Positions 1 to 9,397 of a stretch of DNA of 24,865 nucleotides are shown in pieces. The number at the start of each line of letters is the position of its first letter. Positions within the stretch are counted from its first letter, which is position 1. The stretch is from a virus. Under the pieces are notes generated by a model, which was not told where the DNA came from, did not search any database, and saw nothing but the letters and a program-made list of their open reading frames with translations. A program made the position numbers and the translations under genes. The DNA lies in the IMG/VR virus record IMGVR_UViG_3300010372_000012, positions 1 to 24,865 of that record; one strand, 5' to 3'.

Positions 1-25
1 TAGTGTTATTGATTGGGTGGTTATT

Positions 26-748
26 ATGAAAGTAAAATTAAGAGGTTGCGGTGCTGAGTTAAACTTATTGTTCGGATGTGACGCTGAGTTCTTCTTAGCT
101 GACGCTGATGGCAATGTTATACCAGCATCTAAGGTAATACCGGGAAAGAAGTTCGACCCTCATGTATTGGATAACGGTGTATGCCATCCTGATGGTTTAT
201 CCTTAGAGGTAGGTTGCCCACCAGCAGAGACACCGGAGGGTATGCTAACTAACCTGTTCGCTGTGCTTCAGGAAGTCAAGGAGAAGTTCCTCGATCCAGC
301 TGGTGTTCATATCATCCAAGCCATGCAGGTTGATTCTTCTTTAGTCAAAGGCACAGACAAAGAAGACTTAGAGTTCGGTTGTGGCTCTGAGTACGATGTG
401 TACAGCAGTAATATGTTCAAGGATTCTGATCGAGATACATCCCAGAAGATGCGGTACTCTGGATTCCATATCCACATCGGGTACACATCAGGTCAATACG
501 ATAACTTCTGGACGTACACAGATGCTGGCAGGTTAGTTCGAGTACTTGATTCTTTGGTAGACAAGTACCAGCTAGGTACAACTCCCGGCAGAGAAAAGCA
601 GTACGGCGGTCGTGGAGCTTTCCGTGTCAAGCCGTACGGCATTGAGTATCGATGTATGGACTGCTCAGTTATCACTAAACCAAGTAAGTTCAGTGCCCTA
701 GTTTCTTTCCTTAACGAAATCCCAAGTGCAATGGAGAAACTTTTATGA
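26..748 (+). CDS. COOH-NH2 ligase, type 2 (phage amidoligase, GS-like fold)
   Basis: Predicted ATP-dependent carboxylate-amine ligase that would form an amide or peptide bond; the substrate is unknown. The 240-residue protein has the spaced blocks expected of the phage type-2 family: GCDAEFF near the N-terminus, HPDGLSLEVGCPPAE in the first third, FHIHIGY in the middle, and GRGAFRVKPYGIEYRCMD near the C-terminus. The acidic residues in the first two blocks and the His-x-His and Arg/Glu of the later blocks correspond to metal and ATP positions of the glutamine-synthetase fold. An in-frame GTG lies at 17, but the ATG at 26 has GGGTGG five bases upstream and is preferred. It is the first gene of an overlapping set with a second ligase of another type and an ATP-grasp ligase. 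The family call is from recognised motifs; the role is inferred. Confidence 0.8.
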   Translation: MKVKLRGCGAELNLLFGCDAEFFLADADGNVIPASKVIPGKKFDPHVLDNGVCHPDGLSLEVGCPPAETPEGMLTNLFAVLQEVKEKFLDPAGVHIIQAMQVDSSLVKGTDKEDLEFGCGSEYDVYSSNMFKDSDRDTSQKMRYSGFHIHIGYTSGQYDNFWTYTDAGRLVRVLDSLVDKYQLGTTPGREKQYGGRGAFRVKPYGIEYRCMDCSVITKPSKFSALVSFLNEIPSAMEKLL

Positions 749-1260
749 TACCTTTGATGAACTGTTCTCCATCTGACCTAGGCTCTTACTACAACGGATG
801 TACTGTATTCGACTCTGACAAGAAACCTTGGCTGGTCAGGGAATGCGGTTCGAATAGCATCCACTGCCAAGATGATAAGGGTACAAGTAAAGCGTTCAGC
901 CGGACTGACTTGTTCGTTCACTATCTGCCACCGTTCTTCACACGTAATGGTGACATCATCGGAGTTGAGGTATCTCGTTCGTACAAGAGAGCGCCAACGT
1001 ACGACCTGTCTGTGTATCCTGAAATTGCGAGTATTCTCGACGGTTCCTTCAAGAGTACGTTCGATGGTAAGGTAGGACGCATAGGTAGGATGTTCTTCTG
1101 TGAACCTGACCGACGTATTGACTGCGCAGTCAAGTACTTCACAGACTTGTGCGGGTTCTTCAAGGAAGGTATCTTATATATCACAGACGACTTCTTAGCT
1201 GAACGGTTACAACAAATATTATCAGAAGAGGGTTCTTCATATGTGGTACGAACAGTATAG
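745..1260 (+). CDS. Unknown protein within the amidoligase cassette
   Basis: A 171-residue protein that I do not recognise. It begins with an ATGA overlap on the preceding ligase, with GGAGA seven bases before the ATG, and runs 20 bases into the next ligase, so it should be translated with both. A second ATG five codons in (757) is a possible start. It has no signal peptide or membrane segment. Its N-terminal third contains short turns such as YYNGCTVFDSDKKPWLV, which could be a small beta-barrel, and the rest is mixed alpha/beta with several cysteines. Position alone suggests that it works with the two ligases, for example as a substrate carrier, the modified protein or a structural partner. 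It could also be a small unrelated phage gene. Confidence 0.75.
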   Translation: MIPLMNCSPSDLGSYYNGCTVFDSDKKPWLVRECGSNSIHCQDDKGTSKAFSRTDLFVHYLPPFFTRNGDIIGVEVSRSYKRAPTYDLSVYPEIASILDGSFKSTFDGKVGRIGRMFFCEPDRRIDCAVKYFTDLCGFFKEGILYITDDFLAERLQQILSEEGSSYVVRTV

Positions 1261-2305
1261 TGGCAGGTCTGTTCAGAACTTAGGTTTACTGTACGGACTG
1301 GAGTTAGAGATAGAGGGTTCAGGTATCGAAGGTGCATCCTCTGAACTATCCAGTAGTAACTGGATCGTAGAACGAGATGGCTCTTTACGTAATGGTTTAG
1401 AGTTCAAGAGTCGTGGCCCTAAGACGTACGAAGAAACTGTTGGTATGATTAAGGAGTACAGTAACTTCCTAGATAAGTGCAAGGCAAGGGCTACACCACG
1501 AACATCAGTACACATCCATGTGAACACCCAGCACATGACAGCTGAGCAGATGAAGTCTATGGTGTGGTTATCTGTAGCTATGGAGCCAGTTATCTTACGA
1601 TTTTGTTCTAACCTTCGAAACCATAACGGGTACTGTATCCCTGTGTACAACAGCACGAACCTAGTTCAGTACTGGCGTAACGTGTTCAAGTTCCTTGATA
1701 AAGGTTTAACAACGTCAGAACTAACAGGGTTGTCACGTTATAAGTACGCCGCTACTGGTGCGTACCGACTACTTGACCTAGGCACAATCGAGTACCGTAT
1801 GTTTCCCGGTTGTACTGACCACACTAAGTTGTACTGGTACATAGATATACTTCGCTCTATCTATGAAGTTGCTATGTCTACCCCTGTGTCTACGTTACGT
1901 GACAAGAAATTATCCGAGGGCTTACTATCTCTTATTACTAATGTAATTCTTGAGAACCGTAAGTCCGTAACATTAAAAGAGTTAGAAAGTTTACTTGAAC
2001 GAGGTGTCCAAATGGCTAATGATATCGCAAGAACTCCGTTGACACGGCAACAACTAGTTGCCAAGCACTCCGAATTATTCCCTTCTAAGTACAAACCTGT
2101 TACTAGTTCGTCCTTAGTAGATCTTTATAAGTCTACTAACTTGAAGAAATCTCTGGCTGAGTACGACCCAGAAGAAATAGGTACTATCCTTAAAGGCAAT
2201 ATCACTGAAGTGTTCCAAGCTTTGCGTACCCAGTACCCTAACGAACCTGCGGGCATCGCTGTATTCATTCGTGAGTTAGTAACATTAGGAGCGCTGAAGG
2301 CATGA
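1241..2305 (+). CDS. Amidoligase, Amidoligase_2-like (second COOH-NH2 ligase)
   Basis: A 354-residue predicted amidoligase of the glutamine-synthetase fold, distinct in sequence from the first ligase. Visible blocks are YGLELEIEG (residues ~18-26), ERDGSLRNGLEFKSRGP (~44-60), SVHIHVN (~88-94) and GTIEYRMFPG (~181-190). These match the Glu-x-Glu, Asp-Gly-Ser, His-x-His and Glu-Tyr-Arg positions that bind metal and nucleotide in this family. The C-terminal ~150 residues are helical, carry no recognised motif, and are longer than a minimal catalytic domain needs. The ATG at 1241 has AGAAGAGGG about nine bases upstream and lies inside the end of the previous gene. Its stop overlaps the ATP-grasp start (ATGA). 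Substrate is unknown; I infer that both ligases and the ATP-grasp enzyme act on one product. Confidence 0.8.
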   Translation: MWYEQYSGRSVQNLGLLYGLELEIEGSGIEGASSELSSSNWIVERDGSLRNGLEFKSRGPKTYEETVGMIKEYSNFLDKCKARATPRTSVHIHVNTQHMTAEQMKSMVWLSVAMEPVILRFCSNLRNHNGYCIPVYNSTNLVQYWRNVFKFLDKGLTTSELTGLSRYKYAATGAYRLLDLGTIEYRMFPGCTDHTKLYWYIDILRSIYEVAMSTPVSTLRDKKLSEGLLSLITNVILENRKSVTLKELESLLERGVQMANDIARTPLTRQQLVAKHSELFPSKYKPVTSSSLVDLYKSTNLKKSLAEYDPEEIGTILKGNITEVFQALRTQYPNEPAGIAVFIRELVTLGALKA

Positions 2306-3174
2306 TTAATGTAATCTCATGGAACAACGGAGAGTCAGCCAAGGCTATTAGTTCTCTGGTCAGTAATGGTAAGTTACTTCGTAAGAACAATGCACCTGTG
2401 CCACGTAATAGCCAAGGTATCATTAACTTTGGCTGCTCTGAGATCACTCGTGATACCAGAGATGTGCTGGTATTGAATAGGCCAGAAGCTGTAGCTATTG
2501 CTTGCTCTAAGCTCAGGACATTCGAGACTATAGCAGCTCAGCTTCCATCATCTGTACCTTGGTTCACAACAGATAGTGACCAAGCTGTACTGAAAGCTAT
2601 CATAGAAGATACACCTATTGTATGTCGTACCATTGACCGTGGTCATGGCGGTGCTGGTATAGTTGTCAAGACACCAGAAGAAATACAGGCTGATGGTAAC
2701 TTACCACGAGCCGCAGTGTACGTTAAAGCTATCAAGAAGCGTCGTGAGTACCGAGTACACTGTGCATTACAGAATGGTTACATCTTCAGGATCTTAGATA
2801 TCCAGCGTAAGGTTCGGAGAGCTGGTGTTCAGGATGGAGGTGTTAACGGTGCAGATCGCCCGTTCATCTGGAACCATGATAATGATTTCGTATTCCAACG
2901 GGAAGGTGTGAACCATGACTCTGTTCCGGGCGGTGTTATTACTGTAGCTAATCGCGCTATAATCTCCCTGGGTCTTGACTTCGCAGCTATTGATATCGTA
3001 GTAGAGCAACGGACAGGTAACTGTTACGTACTGGAGGTGAACACATCACCGGGTATGGAAGGTACTACCTTAGAACGGTATCAGCTGTTCTTTAACCACC
3101 GATTTAATGGTACGCCTTTTGTTCGTTGGTCTGGTGACAGCACAGAGGAGCAAGATGATGGGTCTGAAGATTAA
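2302..3174 (+). CDS. ATP-grasp carboxylate-amine ligase (RimK-like)
   Basis: A 290-residue ATP-grasp enzyme, expected to activate a carboxylate as acyl-phosphate and join it to an amine, as RimK does when adding glutamates. The flexible ATP-binding loop is seen as RTIDRGHGGAGIVV (~residues 108-121). The acidic residues that bind magnesium lie in AAIDIVV and VLEVNTSPGMEG (~228-255), with the usual E-x-N pattern. A YRVH segment (~149-152) matches the conserved Arg/His strand. The last ~15 residues are acidic (STEEQDDGSED) and partly overlap the next gene. The ATG overlaps the preceding ligase stop as ATGA, with AGGAG ten bases upstream. The family is clear; the substrate is not, though pairing with two GS-fold ligases resembles the ligase set reported in phiEco32-type phages. 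Confidence 0.85.
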   Translation: MINVISWNNGESAKAISSLVSNGKLLRKNNAPVPRNSQGIINFGCSEITRDTRDVLVLNRPEAVAIACSKLRTFETIAAQLPSSVPWFTTDSDQAVLKAIIEDTPIVCRTIDRGHGGAGIVVKTPEEIQADGNLPRAAVYVKAIKKRREYRVHCALQNGYIFRILDIQRKVRRAGVQDGGVNGADRPFIWNHDNDFVFQREGVNHDSVPGGVITVANRAIISLGLDFAAIDIVVEQRTGNCYVLEVNTSPGMEGTTLERYQLFFNHRFNGTPFVRWSGDSTEEQDDGSED

Positions 3175-3430
3175 TCCAGAGATACAGGTACAGTACTCAT
3201 CAGTGCTAGAGGCTCAAGTAGTTCTTGATATAGCTACTAAACTAATGGGCTATGAACTAGATGTTCGCATCCGTAGCCACTTCAGGGAGCCAACTATATC
3301 AGCTCACTGTAACTCAAGAAGTACACGAATAAGACTTCGGGATGGTGATATCAGGTTAGTACATCAACCGGACTACCGAGGAATCAAGCTTAACTTCCAG
3401 CAGTTCATTGAGTACGCTGCTAAACAATAG
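3155..3430 (+). CDS. Small unknown protein at the end of the amidoligase operon
   Basis: A protein of about 91 residues with no recognised domain. The open frame extends upstream to 3107, but GAGGAG at 3145-3150 followed by two adjacent ATG codons (3155, 3158) marks the real start, giving a 20-base overlap with the ATP-grasp gene. It is basic in its centre (VRIRSHFREP, STRIRLRDGDIRLVH) and reads as mixed strand and helix, so it could bind nucleic acid or an acidic partner. No cysteine cluster or membrane segment is seen. Spacing to the next gene is 11 bases. Function unknown. Confidence 0.7.
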   Translation: MMGLKINPEIQVQYSSVLEAQVVLDIATKLMGYELDVRIRSHFREPTISAHCNSRSTRIRLRDGDIRLVHQPDYRGIKLNFQQFIEYAAKQ

Positions 3431-3433
3431 GAG
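3429..3433 (+). promoter_or_regulatory. Ribosome binding site deciding a TTG start
   Basis: AGGAG overlaps the stop codon of the preceding gene and lies eight bases before the TTG at 3442. No ATG or GTG is better placed, and residues encoded directly after the TTG match the primase N-terminus, so TTG is the likely start of the chimeric endonuclease. This may be the ancestral primase ribosome binding site, now captured by the inserted gene. Confidence 0.55.
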
Positions 3434-3441
3434 ATACTTTA

Positions 3442-4017
3442 TTGAGTAAAGTCTGCGTAGAGAAATTACCACATAAGTGCGGGTCTAAGCGTGGCCTGCA
3501 AGTGTTCCAACAAGAGGATGGTACGTACGACGCTTTTGTAGAGGAATGTCGTTCGTTATTCTATTTACATAGGGGGTACCTATATCACAAAGTAACTCGT
3601 GGTAAGACTGTAAAAGAAGGTACACCTGTTATTAATCCCGATGTGAACCTGAAAGGTTATAAACAGGTTCGAGTATATGGTAGGCCTGAGAGATATCACC
3701 GTGTTGTGTGGGCTGTAGCTTATGGAGAAGTCCCTGATGTTATTGACCACATAGATGGGGACATTCACAACAACTGCCTATCTAACTTAAGGTCTGTTAC
3801 ATCCGAGATTAATCAAAGGAATCAGAAACTGTCTTGTTTGAATATCTCAGGAAGAACCGGTGTACACAGGAATAAAAGGACTGGCAAGTACGAGGCTTAC
3901 ATAGGAATTGGTAAAGGGAAGCGTAAGCATCTCGGTCACTTCAGCTCTTTTGAAGAAGCATTCCATGCACGTAGAGAAGCTGAATCTGACTTGCTGTATA
4001 ATATTTGGAGGAACTGA
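3442..4017 (+). CDS. HNH homing endonuclease (HNH_3 + AP2-like) fused to a primase N-terminus
   Basis: A 191-residue free-standing homing endonuclease. Residues ~4-29 closely copy the start of the primase-helicase encoded just downstream (21 of 26 identical). Residues ~72-125 form an HNH nuclease: YHRVVWAVAYGEVP, then DHIDGDIHNNCLSNLRSVT with catalytic His103 and the conserved Asn residues. Residues ~132-185 resemble the AP2-type DNA-binding region seen at the C-terminus of such enzymes (GRTGVHRNKRTGKYEAYIG, then LGHFSSFEEAFHARREAE). The borrowed part stops after the first half of the zinc knuckle; the second CxxC pair is missing. The start is TTG. The stop overlaps the primase start (TGATG), and the gene's end supplies GGAGGA, the primase ribosome binding site. 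This looks like an insertion at the head of the primase gene that kept primase expression intact. Confidence 0.85.
   Translation: MSKVCVEKLPHKCGSKRGLQVFQQEDGTYDAFVEECRSLFYLHRGYLYHKVTRGKTVKEGTPVINPDVNLKGYKQVRVYGRPERYHRVVWAVAYGEVPDVIDHIDGDIHNNCLSNLRSVTSEINQRNQKLSCLNISGRTGVHRNKRTGKYEAYIGIGKGKRKHLGHFSSFEEAFHARREAESDLLYNIWRN
3451..3528 (+). repeat. Diverged duplicate of the primase 5' end, copy 1
   Basis: This 78-base segment encodes residues 4-29 of the homing endonuclease and aligns without gaps to 4023-4100 in the primase gene. By hand count 53 of 78 bases match (68%), but 21 of 26 amino acids match (81%). Of the 21 shared residues only 6 use the same codon. The differences are therefore mainly synonymous, which argues against a recent tandem duplication of this phage's own gene. 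Confidence 0.8.
4007..4012 (+). promoter_or_regulatory. Primase ribosome binding site supplied by the inserted endonuclease
   Basis: GGAGGA sits within the last codons of the homing endonuclease, four bases before the primase ATG at 4017. Because it lies inside the inserted gene, the insertion carries its own replacement signal for primase translation. Confidence 0.6.
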
Positions 4018-5675
4018 TGGGAGTTTGCGTTGAAAAGATAGCCCATAAGTGTGGCAGCAAGAGGGGGCTTCAAGTCTTTCAGGAAGACGATGGCTCCTAT
4101 ACTGGTTTCTGTTTCAGCTGTGGTACGTACGAACCAGACCCTTACGGGGAGTCAGGCTCATCACCTCCGGTTAAGAAGCTCAGGGTTAAGACTCCAGAGG
4201 AAGTACAAGCTGAGCTTCAGGAGATACAAGAGTATCCTATCCTAGCTCGTGAGGAACGCTGTATATCTCTCAAGGTTATGCAGCACTTCGGTGTCCGAAC
4301 CAGTATGTCTGAGTACCAAGCGAACACACCTGTTGCTTGCTGGTATCCGTACTACGCAGGCGATAAGCTATCAGCCTTTAAGTGCAAGACGTTCGACAAG
4401 ATCATGTTCAGCAAAGGCGACATGCGGAACGCTGATATGTTCGGCTGGCACAAGGTGTACGGTGCTAACAAGTACAAGCTGTTCATTACTGAGGGTGAGG
4501 ACGATGCTATGGCGTTGTTCAGAGTCCTTGTCAAGTCTTGGAAGTACGACTCGTACCCTGCCGTAGTGTCACTTAAGAACGGTAGTAAGTCAGCTGGCTC
4601 CTGTATCAGCAAGCACCTTCAGGACATAGAACGTATGTTCAAAGAAGTAGTCCTGTGCTTCGACAATGACGCTCCGGGACGAGCAGCAGTGTCAGCTGTA
4701 GCTAAGGTGCTGCCCGGTGTTAAAGTTGCTACACTACCACTCAAAGATGCTAATGATATGCTCATGGCAGGACGTGAGAAAGAGCTGTTCCAAGCTGTGA
4801 TGTACGAAGCAGCACCGAAGGTGTCAGGTTCCACTTATAATTCAGGTGAGATCTGGCACCTCGCTGATGAAGTAGTGGAGCAAGGTCTCGATTGGCCTTG
4901 GCCTAGTATGACTGAGGTAACAAGGGGTGCTAGGTTTGGTGAGGTTAGCTACTTCGGTGCTGGTGTTAAGATGGGTAAGTCTGTCTTAGTGGATGAGATA
5001 GCAGCGCACTTCATTACTAGGTACGATATAGCTCCGTTCCTTGTCAAGCCAGAAGAACCTATGTCTGGGACACTCAGGCGACTAGCTGGCAAGGCCATAG
5101 GAAAGGTGTTCTGGGATCCTAAGATACCGTACACCAAGGAGGAATTCCAAGAGGGCAAGGACTTAATAGGTAACAGGGCGTACATCTATGACTGCTATCA
5201 AGGTACAGACTGGGAGCAGGTCAAGCGAGAGATACGTGTGTACTCTAGCTTCGAGTCCAAGGGTTTAGTTATCCTTGATCCGTTGACTTGCTTCACTGTG
5301 GGTATGTCAATGGGTGAGCAGAACGAGAAGCTAGTATCCATAGCCTCAGAGTTCGCAGCTTTAGCTAAGGAGCTGAACTTCATAGGTGTTATCTTCTGTC
5401 ACCTGAATAGACCTGACTCTGGCGCTCCCCATGAACGTGGGGGCAAGGTGTTGTCTGTACAGTTCGCTGGATCTCGTGCCATGATGAGGTTCTGTCATTC
5501 ACTCTGGGGTTTAGAAGGGAATAAAGATCCTGACTTACCAGAGGAGGAACGTAATACTAGGTTCCTTGTACTGCTGGAGGACAGGAACTTCGGTGAGTCT
5601 ATCCGTATACCTATGTTCTATAACAAACAGACTGGTAAGTTAACTGAGTTAACGCCAAGAGTAGGAGGTGATTGA
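4017..5675 (+). CDS. DNA primase-helicase (T7 gp4-like)
   Basis: A 552-residue replicative primase-helicase that would unwind the fork 5'-3' and make primers for the phage polymerase. Residues 1-40 form a zinc-binding module with His10, Cys12, Cys32 and Cys35 as likely ligands. T7 gp4 uses four cysteines, so a His ligand is a variation. A TOPRIM domain follows: FITEGEDDA (~156-164), CFDNDAPGR (~214-222) and LPLKDANDM (~240-248). The helicase domain has a Walker A-like GAGVKMGKS (~314-322), Walker B LVILD (~417-421) and the late motifs FCHLNRP and LLEDRNFGES found in gp4-type proteins. The ATG at 4017 shares a base with the preceding stop. An in-frame TTG at 4005 is less likely because GGAGGA precedes the ATG. 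Length fits T7 gp4 (566). Confidence 0.93.
   Translation: MGVCVEKIAHKCGSKRGLQVFQEDDGSYTGFCFSCGTYEPDPYGESGSSPPVKKLRVKTPEEVQAELQEIQEYPILAREERCISLKVMQHFGVRTSMSEYQANTPVACWYPYYAGDKLSAFKCKTFDKIMFSKGDMRNADMFGWHKVYGANKYKLFITEGEDDAMALFRVLVKSWKYDSYPAVVSLKNGSKSAGSCISKHLQDIERMFKEVVLCFDNDAPGRAAVSAVAKVLPGVKVATLPLKDANDMLMAGREKELFQAVMYEAAPKVSGSTYNSGEIWHLADEVVEQGLDWPWPSMTEVTRGARFGEVSYFGAGVKMGKSVLVDEIAAHFITRYDIAPFLVKPEEPMSGTLRRLAGKAIGKVFWDPKIPYTKEEFQEGKDLIGNRAYIYDCYQGTDWEQVKREIRVYSSFESKGLVILDPLTCFTVGMSMGEQNEKLVSIASEFAALAKELNFIGVIFCHLNRPDSGAPHERGGKVLSVQFAGSRAMMRFCHSLWGLEGNKDPDLPEEERNTRFLVLLEDRNFGESIRIPMFYNKQTGKLTELTPRVGGD
4023..4100 (+). repeat. Primase 5' end, copy 2 of the duplicated segment
   Basis: Partner of the segment at 3451-3528; encodes primase residues 3-28, the first half of the zinc-binding domain. 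In this copy the zinc module continues into FCFSCG, so this is the functional one. Confidence 0.8.
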
Positions 5676-8637: not shown

Positions 8638-9397
8638 AAACAAATCTGCCCCTTCAAGCAGTAATGCTTGTCGAATAACTATGTGAATTCAGTGGAACCT
8701 TAGCCAAATTTCCAATAGTGTTACTACTTCGGAGCATATAGCTCTTATATAGTACAACTGGGAATTGAAAGGTAATACTGAGCGAAGCTATGGGATACGA
8801 AAAAAGAAATTGTACAGATTGCGGTAAAGAGTACACACCTTGGCAGTACAACCAAGTAAGGTGTGGGGATTGTGTGGTTAAGAAAGGCAGTAGGTACAAA
8901 GGAGAACCTCCTCTTACTGAGTGTCCAACTTGTGGCACTATGTTTAGAAGAACATCTCCAAGGAAGAAGTACTGCAAACCTGAGTGCGGTGGTACACAGC
9001 GATTCGGATATATAGAATCTGCTTATGGACTTACCCCTAGACAGTACATAGATATGGTGTCGGAACACCAGAACAGATGTGCTATTTGCGGAAACAAGCC
9101 AGAAGAAATTAGTACACTACCATCGAACCACAAACATCTCTGTATTGATCACGACCATGCAACAGGAAAGGTAAGAGGGCTTCTCTGCCATCACTGTAAC
9201 ACAGGTTTAGGTCAGTTCAAAGATAATCTAATCTCTTTACAGAACGCAATTAAGTATCTCACAGAACGTGCAGAGACTATCTCGAAAGAGAGTACACCTG
9301 ATACGGATTCAGGTGGAAGCGCATAGCACCCTACATGGGTGGTGATATAGTCCGATACCCGCAGAAATGTGGGAGGCAAGGATGCCGTAACGATATG
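8638..9397 (+). ncRNA. Group I intron (IA-like) in the DNA polymerase gene
   Basis: A 760-nt self-splicing intron interrupting motif B. The exon ends in CGGGU; the internal guide GCCC at 8648-8651 pairs with GGGU, leaving the required U-G pair at the splice site. Exon joining gives TGG and restores frame: NHGYG-W-KFGASNKKLG. Other visible elements are P2 (8655-8660/8665-8670), P3 (CTATGT 8679-8684/GCATAG 9321-9326), a P4-like pair (8686-8690/8762-8766), P7 (GACTAT 9275-9280/ATAGTC 9347-9352), a GAAA-capped P7.1 (9281-9290), P7.2 (9296-9301/9309-9314), P8 (9327-9331/9337-9341), P9 (9358-9362/9369-9373) and P9.1 (9375-9378/9383-9386). The intron ends in G, as group I introns do. P7.1 and P7.2 suggest subgroup IA. 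Confidence 0.9.
8790..9326 (+). CDS. Intron-encoded HNH endonuclease (endonuclease VII-like)
   Basis: A 178-residue homing endonuclease that should cut intronless polymerase genes and spread the intron. It has two N-terminal zinc ribbons (Cys8/11/25/28 and Cys45/48/62/66), probably for DNA binding. An endonuclease VII-type HNH domain follows: YGLTPRQYIDMV, CAICG (97-101), the DHDH catalytic block (residues 120-123) and CHHCNTGLG (133-141). The C-terminal tail is polar. The ATG at 8790 has only weak ribosome-binding potential, as is usual for intron endonucleases whose translation is held down. The gene occupies the P6-side loop, but its last ~17 codons also encode intron core strands: P7 (5' strand), P7.1, P7.2 and P3 (3' strand). 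Its stop codon lies inside P3. Confidence 0.92.
   Translation: MGYEKRNCTDCGKEYTPWQYNQVRCGDCVVKKGSRYKGEPPLTECPTCGTMFRRTSPRKKYCKPECGGTQRFGYIESAYGLTPRQYIDMVSEHQNRCAICGNKPEEISTLPSNHKHLCIDHDHATGKVRGLLCHHCNTGLGQFKDNLISLQNAIKYLTERAETISKESTPDTDSGGSA

Follow-up and report, generated by a model that had tools for sequence, protein, structure and literature searches.

Why does a phage primase gene begin twice, and did one of its two beginnings come from elsewhere? The question is raised by a 24,865-nucleotide stretch of viral DNA (the window; IMG/VR virus record IMGVR_UViG_3300010372_000012, positions 1 to 24,865), in which a nuclease open reading frame (ORF; 3442-4017) and the primase ORF that starts at 4017 open with related sequences. 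Over 28 aligned codons, the two start copies (3454-3537 and 4026-4109) are identical at 21 residues and at 55 of 84 nucleotides, with different codons at 15 of the 21 common residues, base differences of 7, 3, and 19 at codon positions 1, 2, and 3, and no identical run longer than 8 bases. Their similarity is far above chance in a shuffle test, with a protein alignment score of 134 compared to a best score of 41 among 5000 shuffles, and they form the top-scoring pair among 2838 neighboring ORF pairs from 189 loci. The next-best pairs in that set are unrelated proteins or small repeats, no other case of a long leader occurs in it, and no second primase-start copy is found in 512 phage records (512 matches at 512 places). 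The copy fused to the nuclease ends after codon 32 (F), just short of the second half of the zinc module (C-F-S-C), and the HNH protein begins where it ends, at the midpoint of that module. A first-pass annotation had described both copies at these places, and its counts of 21/26 residues and 53/78 nucleotides come from the same alignment trimmed slightly at the end; its 15 recoded residues in 21 are confirmed by our codon comparison, as is its observation that the copy is cut in the middle of the zinc module where the nuclease begins, before the C-F-S-C codons.

Among phages, the nearest to the window are oyster-sample genomes of Melvirus (Zobellviridae), together with one IMG/VR contig. Two of them, the IMG/VR contig 3300010372_000013 (L007) and PQ867846 (L002), carry an uninterrupted primase start and are the insertion-free relatives that the first-pass annotation had proposed to look for. 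The nuclease is absent from the site between primase codons 32 and 33 in L007, L002, and L003, constituting a present/absent polymorphism, and the flanks of the empty sites in L007 and L002 match the window at about 88 to 91%. Codons 1 to 32 of the nuclease-fused copy are identical to L007 at 91 of 96 nucleotides, to L002 at 87, and to L003 at 80; every residue of this copy is also found in empty-site relatives, and the upstream flank runs into it without a break when compared with them. The start of the complete primase, in contrast, matches L007 at 62 and L002 at 65 of 96 nucleotides. Since the nuclease copy matches the empty-site relatives and the complete-primase copy does not, the comparison identifies the nuclease leader as the start of the resident primase and shows that it is the complete primase that begins with the foreign piece.

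The foreign tract is delimited by how the differences are distributed along the gene. Past codon 32, the window primase is identical to L007 at 1441 of 1563 nucleotides, so that the two differ at 34 of 96 positions in codons 1 to 32 and at 122 of 1563 beyond (Fisher p=3e-13). The same excess of 5' differences is seen between L001 (PQ867847) and L002 (p=8e-17), and none is seen between the empty-site pair L007 and L002 (p=0.59). The downstream copy of the window is nearest to the equivalent segment of L001, with 82 of 96 nucleotides identical. Beyond codon 32, the window is nearest to L007 and L001 is nearest to L002, although the foreign 5' end is common to the window and L001; because these affinities disagree, the foreign 5' end has a history that differs from that of the rest of the gene. 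As for a donor of the recoded 5' end, one degenerate pattern gave no exact match in viral_contigs, genome_contigs gave none, and the phage collection gave L001 only.

These comparisons also define the anatomy of the locus, all parts of which lie on the + strand. The resident primase ribosome binding site (RBS; AGGAG, 3429-3433), which lies in the same AATAGGAGATACTTTATTGAGTAAA that precedes the uninterrupted primase of L007 and L002, is now used by the nuclease, whose start codon is the resident TTG. Native primase codons 1 to 32 (3442-3537), assigned by nucleotide match to L007, L002, and L003, continue in frame into the nuclease. When the codons are compared one by one with those of L002, L007, and L003, an inserted element of 572 bp (3538-4109) emerges that consists of the nuclease body and a foreign primase 5' end and sits exactly between resident primase codons 32 and 33. 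The resulting nuclease ORF (3442-4017) encodes 191 amino acids, namely, the 32-residue primase-derived leader followed by an HNH_3 nuclease with a possibly AP2-like C-terminal part. Within the 3' end of the nuclease gene lies a new primase RBS (GGAGGA, 4007-4012), behind which the primase restarts at ATG 4017 in a TGATG stop/start overlap (4015-4019). The foreign, recoded primase 5' end (4017-4109) is the counterpart of resident codons 1 to 32 and leads into a 29-bp block identical to L007 (4110-4138), which holds the codons for the C-F-S-C zinc motif and is likely the right-hand recombination point, where resident primase sequence resumes. The rest of the resident primase/helicase (4110-5675) comprises the second half of the zinc module, Toprim, and a DnaB-like helicase (Pfam Toprim_2 and DnaB_C matches). 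The primase is thereby complete from 4017, and the host gene is not left as two complementary coding parts. It had been proposed from the sequence of the window that the nuclease is read from the original RBS and start of the primase and that the insert supplies the primase with a new one, and both proposals agree with the anatomy described here. As established by comparison with relatives, then, the locus combines an insertion at codon 32/33, capture of the resident start and RBS, completion of the primase by a foreign 5' end, and matching empty sites. Just upstream of the primase, the window also holds an amidoligase/COOH-NH2 ligase and ATP-grasp cluster (17-3174) that is common to the Melvirus relatives examined.

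The nuclease protein matches Pfam PF13392 (HNH_3, E=1.1e-11), which, together with the empty-site relatives, upholds the earlier description of an HNH gene of the homing-endonuclease type inside the primase gene. It also matches I-HmuI (PDB 1u3e, E=2e-4), and its residues D102, H103, and N124, which are invariant in 12 homologues, align with the D/H/N residues of I-HmuI that we take to be the catalytic ones. Judged by this alignment, the HNH active-site residues are intact in the window nuclease. I-HmuI thus belongs to the same nuclease family, with matching active-site residues, but it is encoded in a group I intron and the window nuclease is not. A match to the DNA-binding AP2 domain (20.6 bits, E=5.6e-4) is below the Pfam cut-off of 33.3, and in an AlphaFold2 model built from 12 sequences (mean pLDDT 75), strands at 141-167 followed by a helix at 170-190 are compatible with an AP2-like fold. 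The folded part of the model starts at about residue 30.

Mobile elements of other kinds are found in replication genes of the window and its relatives. The DNA polymerase gene of the window is split at 8638-9393; the interruption, probably a group I intron (RF00028 in Rfam, with 25 bits and E=4e-4 for this region), contains an endonuclease VII-type ORF (8790-9326). The gene is uninterrupted there in L001 and L003. Several relatives carry primase inserts near codon 320, in the ATP-binding region (L007 3955-4679; L003 3946-4230 and 4738-5566; L085 2485-3142); most of these carry an HNH ORF, and the insert in L007 gives a group I intron match (44 bits, E=9e-10). Mobile elements of several types seem to have a hot spot in the primase gene.

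Layouts similar to that of the window are present in other phages, as drawn from the best 60 records per query. In L001, another Melvirus, about 6 resident primase codons are followed by a different nuclease, from a family whose members start with a motif like KLVxGVGINDADY, and then by the foreign 5' end. Because L001 pairs a different nuclease with a related foreign 5' end, the nuclease and the recoded piece are not strictly one linked unit. In Klebsiella phage KpnP_VR7901, the HNH gene starts ATGAGTATAT on an intact primase leader, and the primase differs from that of Asterion at 46 of 111 positions at the start compared to 20 of 873 in the next part (p=1e-32); compared with Klyazma, the same jump extends to about codon 160, beyond which the gapless comparison is out of register. 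A second HNH gene lies directly 3' of the primase of KpnP_VR7901 (L080, 3153-3635) and is missing there from Klyazma, so that this primase is bracketed by two nuclease genes. In Pectobacterium phage Arno18, the nuclease is placed on the RBS and ATG from which the Arno162 primase is read. The two primases differ by 9 synonymous and 0 nonsynonymous changes in the first 32 codons, and the counts for the other 340 codons compared are 10 and 1 (p=5e-6). The number of primase codons kept on the nuclease thus ranges from 32 in the window to about 6 in L001, 3 in KpnP_VR7901, and 1 in Arno18.

Looser arrangements also exist. In TH29 and GJ1, a nuclease precedes the primase, whose 5' end diverges over about 650 bp from that of ST32 and TH24, a layout in which start capture is not seen. 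Erwinia phage Fifi44, compared with SNU27, likewise has a nuclease before the primase, and only 2 codons are changed at its primase 5' end; being almost unrecoded, it indicates that a neighboring nuclease alone does not force the recoding pattern. The thymidylate synthase 3' end upstream of the Fifi44 nuclease matches at 89% and the downstream primase at 99% (L137 700-1117 versus L141), as would be seen if conversion had affected the upstream side of the nuclease instead. The nuclease is directly 5' of the primase in T2S1 (L079/L086), for which no close relative was found for comparison, and in APT65 (L139). The HNH gene at the ends of the former record (L079/L086, PQ867848) spans the record start and is annotated as a non-coding feature; it is probably intact, since about 42 residues repeat at both ends of the circularized record.

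Other accounts of the paired starts have to be weighed against a resident leader and a foreign replacement. The first-pass annotation correctly held that one of the two starts is foreign but took it to be the leader, with which the nuclease would have arrived in front of an undisturbed resident primase. The strong DNA difference between the copies fits such an arrival, but L007 and L002 contradict it: the leader (91/96 and 87/96), not the complete-primase start (62/96 and 65/96), matches the empty sites, and the upstream flank joins the leader unbroken, so that the assignment is reversed and this history is very improbable. Tandem copies with a conserved protein sequence could also stem from a local duplication of the primase start that later diverged, with the nuclease in between, an origin that the first-pass annotation had itself raised against its view. 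In a phylogenetic tree, however, L007/L002 are the neighbors of the upstream copy, the downstream copy is placed beside the L001 segment and, weakly, beside L004, and a sister placement of the two copies of the window is rejected (delta logL 40.6, AU p=0.00013), making local duplication extremely improbable. A further account, in which 3538-4109 is spliced out as a group I intron or bypassed and the resident frame is restored, draws on the position of the insert between codons, with no base lost, and on the group I introns elsewhere in these genes. However, an Rfam search at E<=1 gave no family match in 3400-4200 and none in the counterpart region of L001, whereas the same search recovered as positive controls the group I introns in the window polymerase gene (E=4e-4) and in the L007 primase (E=9e-10). 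Moreover, the nuclease ORF has its own stop and the primase restarts downstream, a complete primase start, in frame and with an RBS, closes the insert, and L001 has lost the resident primase codons beyond about the sixth (codons 7 to 32), so that splicing could not restore its gene. A group I intron at 3538-4109 was rejected on the lack of an Rfam match and the missing L001 codons, and restoration by splicing or bypass is accordingly very unlikely.

The two remaining alternatives accept the resident leader and the foreign replacement but assign them other roles. The leader might be functional, retained because it guides the nuclease to the primase locus or to the replication fork or because it regulates the nuclease; each of its residues also occurs in empty-site relatives, and the first half of the zinc module lies within it. 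Nevertheless, the long form is restricted to the window, the leaders of the other carriers being about 6, 3, and 1 codons, and the insertion may simply be young. Residues 1 to 27 are modeled at pLDDT<50, which is weak evidence of a passive extension because few aligned homologues cover the leader. The targeting role suggested in the first-pass annotation is thus without support, a functional leader in general is quite improbable, and the primase-derived leader is probably a by-product. Alternatively, the nuclease could be a passenger that marks a boundary, with the primase 5' end exchanged because of hot-spot recombination or escape from another phage's nuclease. The near lack of recoding in Fifi44, the different nuclease that accompanies a related 5' end in L001, and the known occurrence of homing endonuclease genes at exchange boundaries (PMC10448857) are all consistent with a passenger; against it, the divergent tract starts at the nuclease and extends into the downstream gene in the pairs compared, and the nuclease active site is intact. 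We regard this passenger account as unlikely.

The explanation that we consider probable is that an intronless HNH homing endonuclease invaded the 5' end of the primase/helicase gene together with a recoded, cleavage-resistant rescue 5' end. The nuclease would recognize the 5' region of the resident primase close to the codons of the conserved zinc motif and, in co-infection, break a primase gene without the element. Repair of the break would copy the nuclease and the recoded 5' end together from the carrier, with the right-hand exchange falling in the first block identical between donor and recipient, here 29 bp. The left end would be joined in frame near the resident start, and as a consequence, the resident start would drive the nuclease. 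The recoded 5' end may have two jobs, namely, to restore the essential gene and to leave no intact target; together with the interruption of the upstream copy, it would keep the carrier from being cut. Because the two copies share runs of at most 8 bp, recombinational loss of the nuclease should be rare. The arrangement in the window could represent the first invasion of this kind or the acquisition of a pre-formed element by ordinary homing.

The closest parallel is found in fungal mitochondria, where a mobile ORF brings a foreign C-terminal end for its host gene and pushes the native one out of place, as described in the sections of PMC3630166 consulted (citing Paquin 1994) for Allomyces macrogynus atp6 (Paquin 1994) and Glomus atp6, atp9, cox2, and nad3. 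Both systems combine a homing endonuclease ORF in an essential gene with a foreign copy of the gene end that was lost, and in both, the displaced end is native, with 91 to 98% identity to relatives compared to 64 to 81% for the inserted end in fungi and 91/96 compared to 62/96 in the window (PMC3630166). However, the fungal element carries the 3' (C-terminal) end and resides in mitochondria, whereas the window element carries the 5' (N-terminal) end and resides in a phage, so that it works like the fungal type without being a member of it. Unlike in the fungal elements as described there, the displaced native end in the window supplies the start and RBS of the nuclease. Phage T4 free-standing nucleases (seg and mob) show intronless homing, co-conversion of flanks, and use of host promoters, and they resemble the window nuclease as promoterless genes beside or in essential replication genes (PMC2988022). 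They lie between genes or split a gene in two, though, and start capture with a replacement 5' end is not described for them in the portions of that source consulted. Likewise, mobA in the T4 topoisomerase gene and mobE in Aeh1 nrdA are HNH nucleases within essential genes, but there the host gene stays as two polypeptides, while the window primase is made whole by the recoded 5' end (PMC2988022). More generally, nuclease genes in phages are concentrated at essential genes and at boundaries of exchange (PMC10448857). The engineered home-and-rescue drive HomeR, as outlined in PMC7968924, is alike in principle, linking a homing nuclease against an essential gene to a re-coded rescue, but it is a synthetic Cas9 system in Drosophila with no relation of descent to the window element. 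Among phages, the portions of the open-access literature consulted yielded no nuclease that takes over the start of the gene it targets while providing that gene with a recoded 5' end.

More tentatively, and as something possible rather than probable, we propose that the window holds one instance of a recurrent phage "home-and-rescue" module, in which intronless nucleases that capture the start and RBS would be paired with a recoded, cleavage-resistant 5' end. Such modules would have arisen several times over, from nucleases unrelated to one another, in Zobellviridae and Ounavirinae and, less strictly, in Chaseviridae. Pairs of phages that can be grown (TH29 or GJ1 with ST32, Arno18 with Arno162, and KpnP_VR7901 with Asterion) open both the protection of the carrier and the rescue of the gene to direct testing. 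The locus suggests that a selfish nuclease needs neither an intron nor an intein to lodge in an essential gene if it replaces the part that it cuts off. The duplicated resident start serves as a fossil from which one can read where the element inserted, which way the transfer went, and how far the foreign tract reaches, traces that are usually invisible for free-standing homing endonucleases. Importantly, the first 100 or so bases of such primase genes can differ in history from the remainder.
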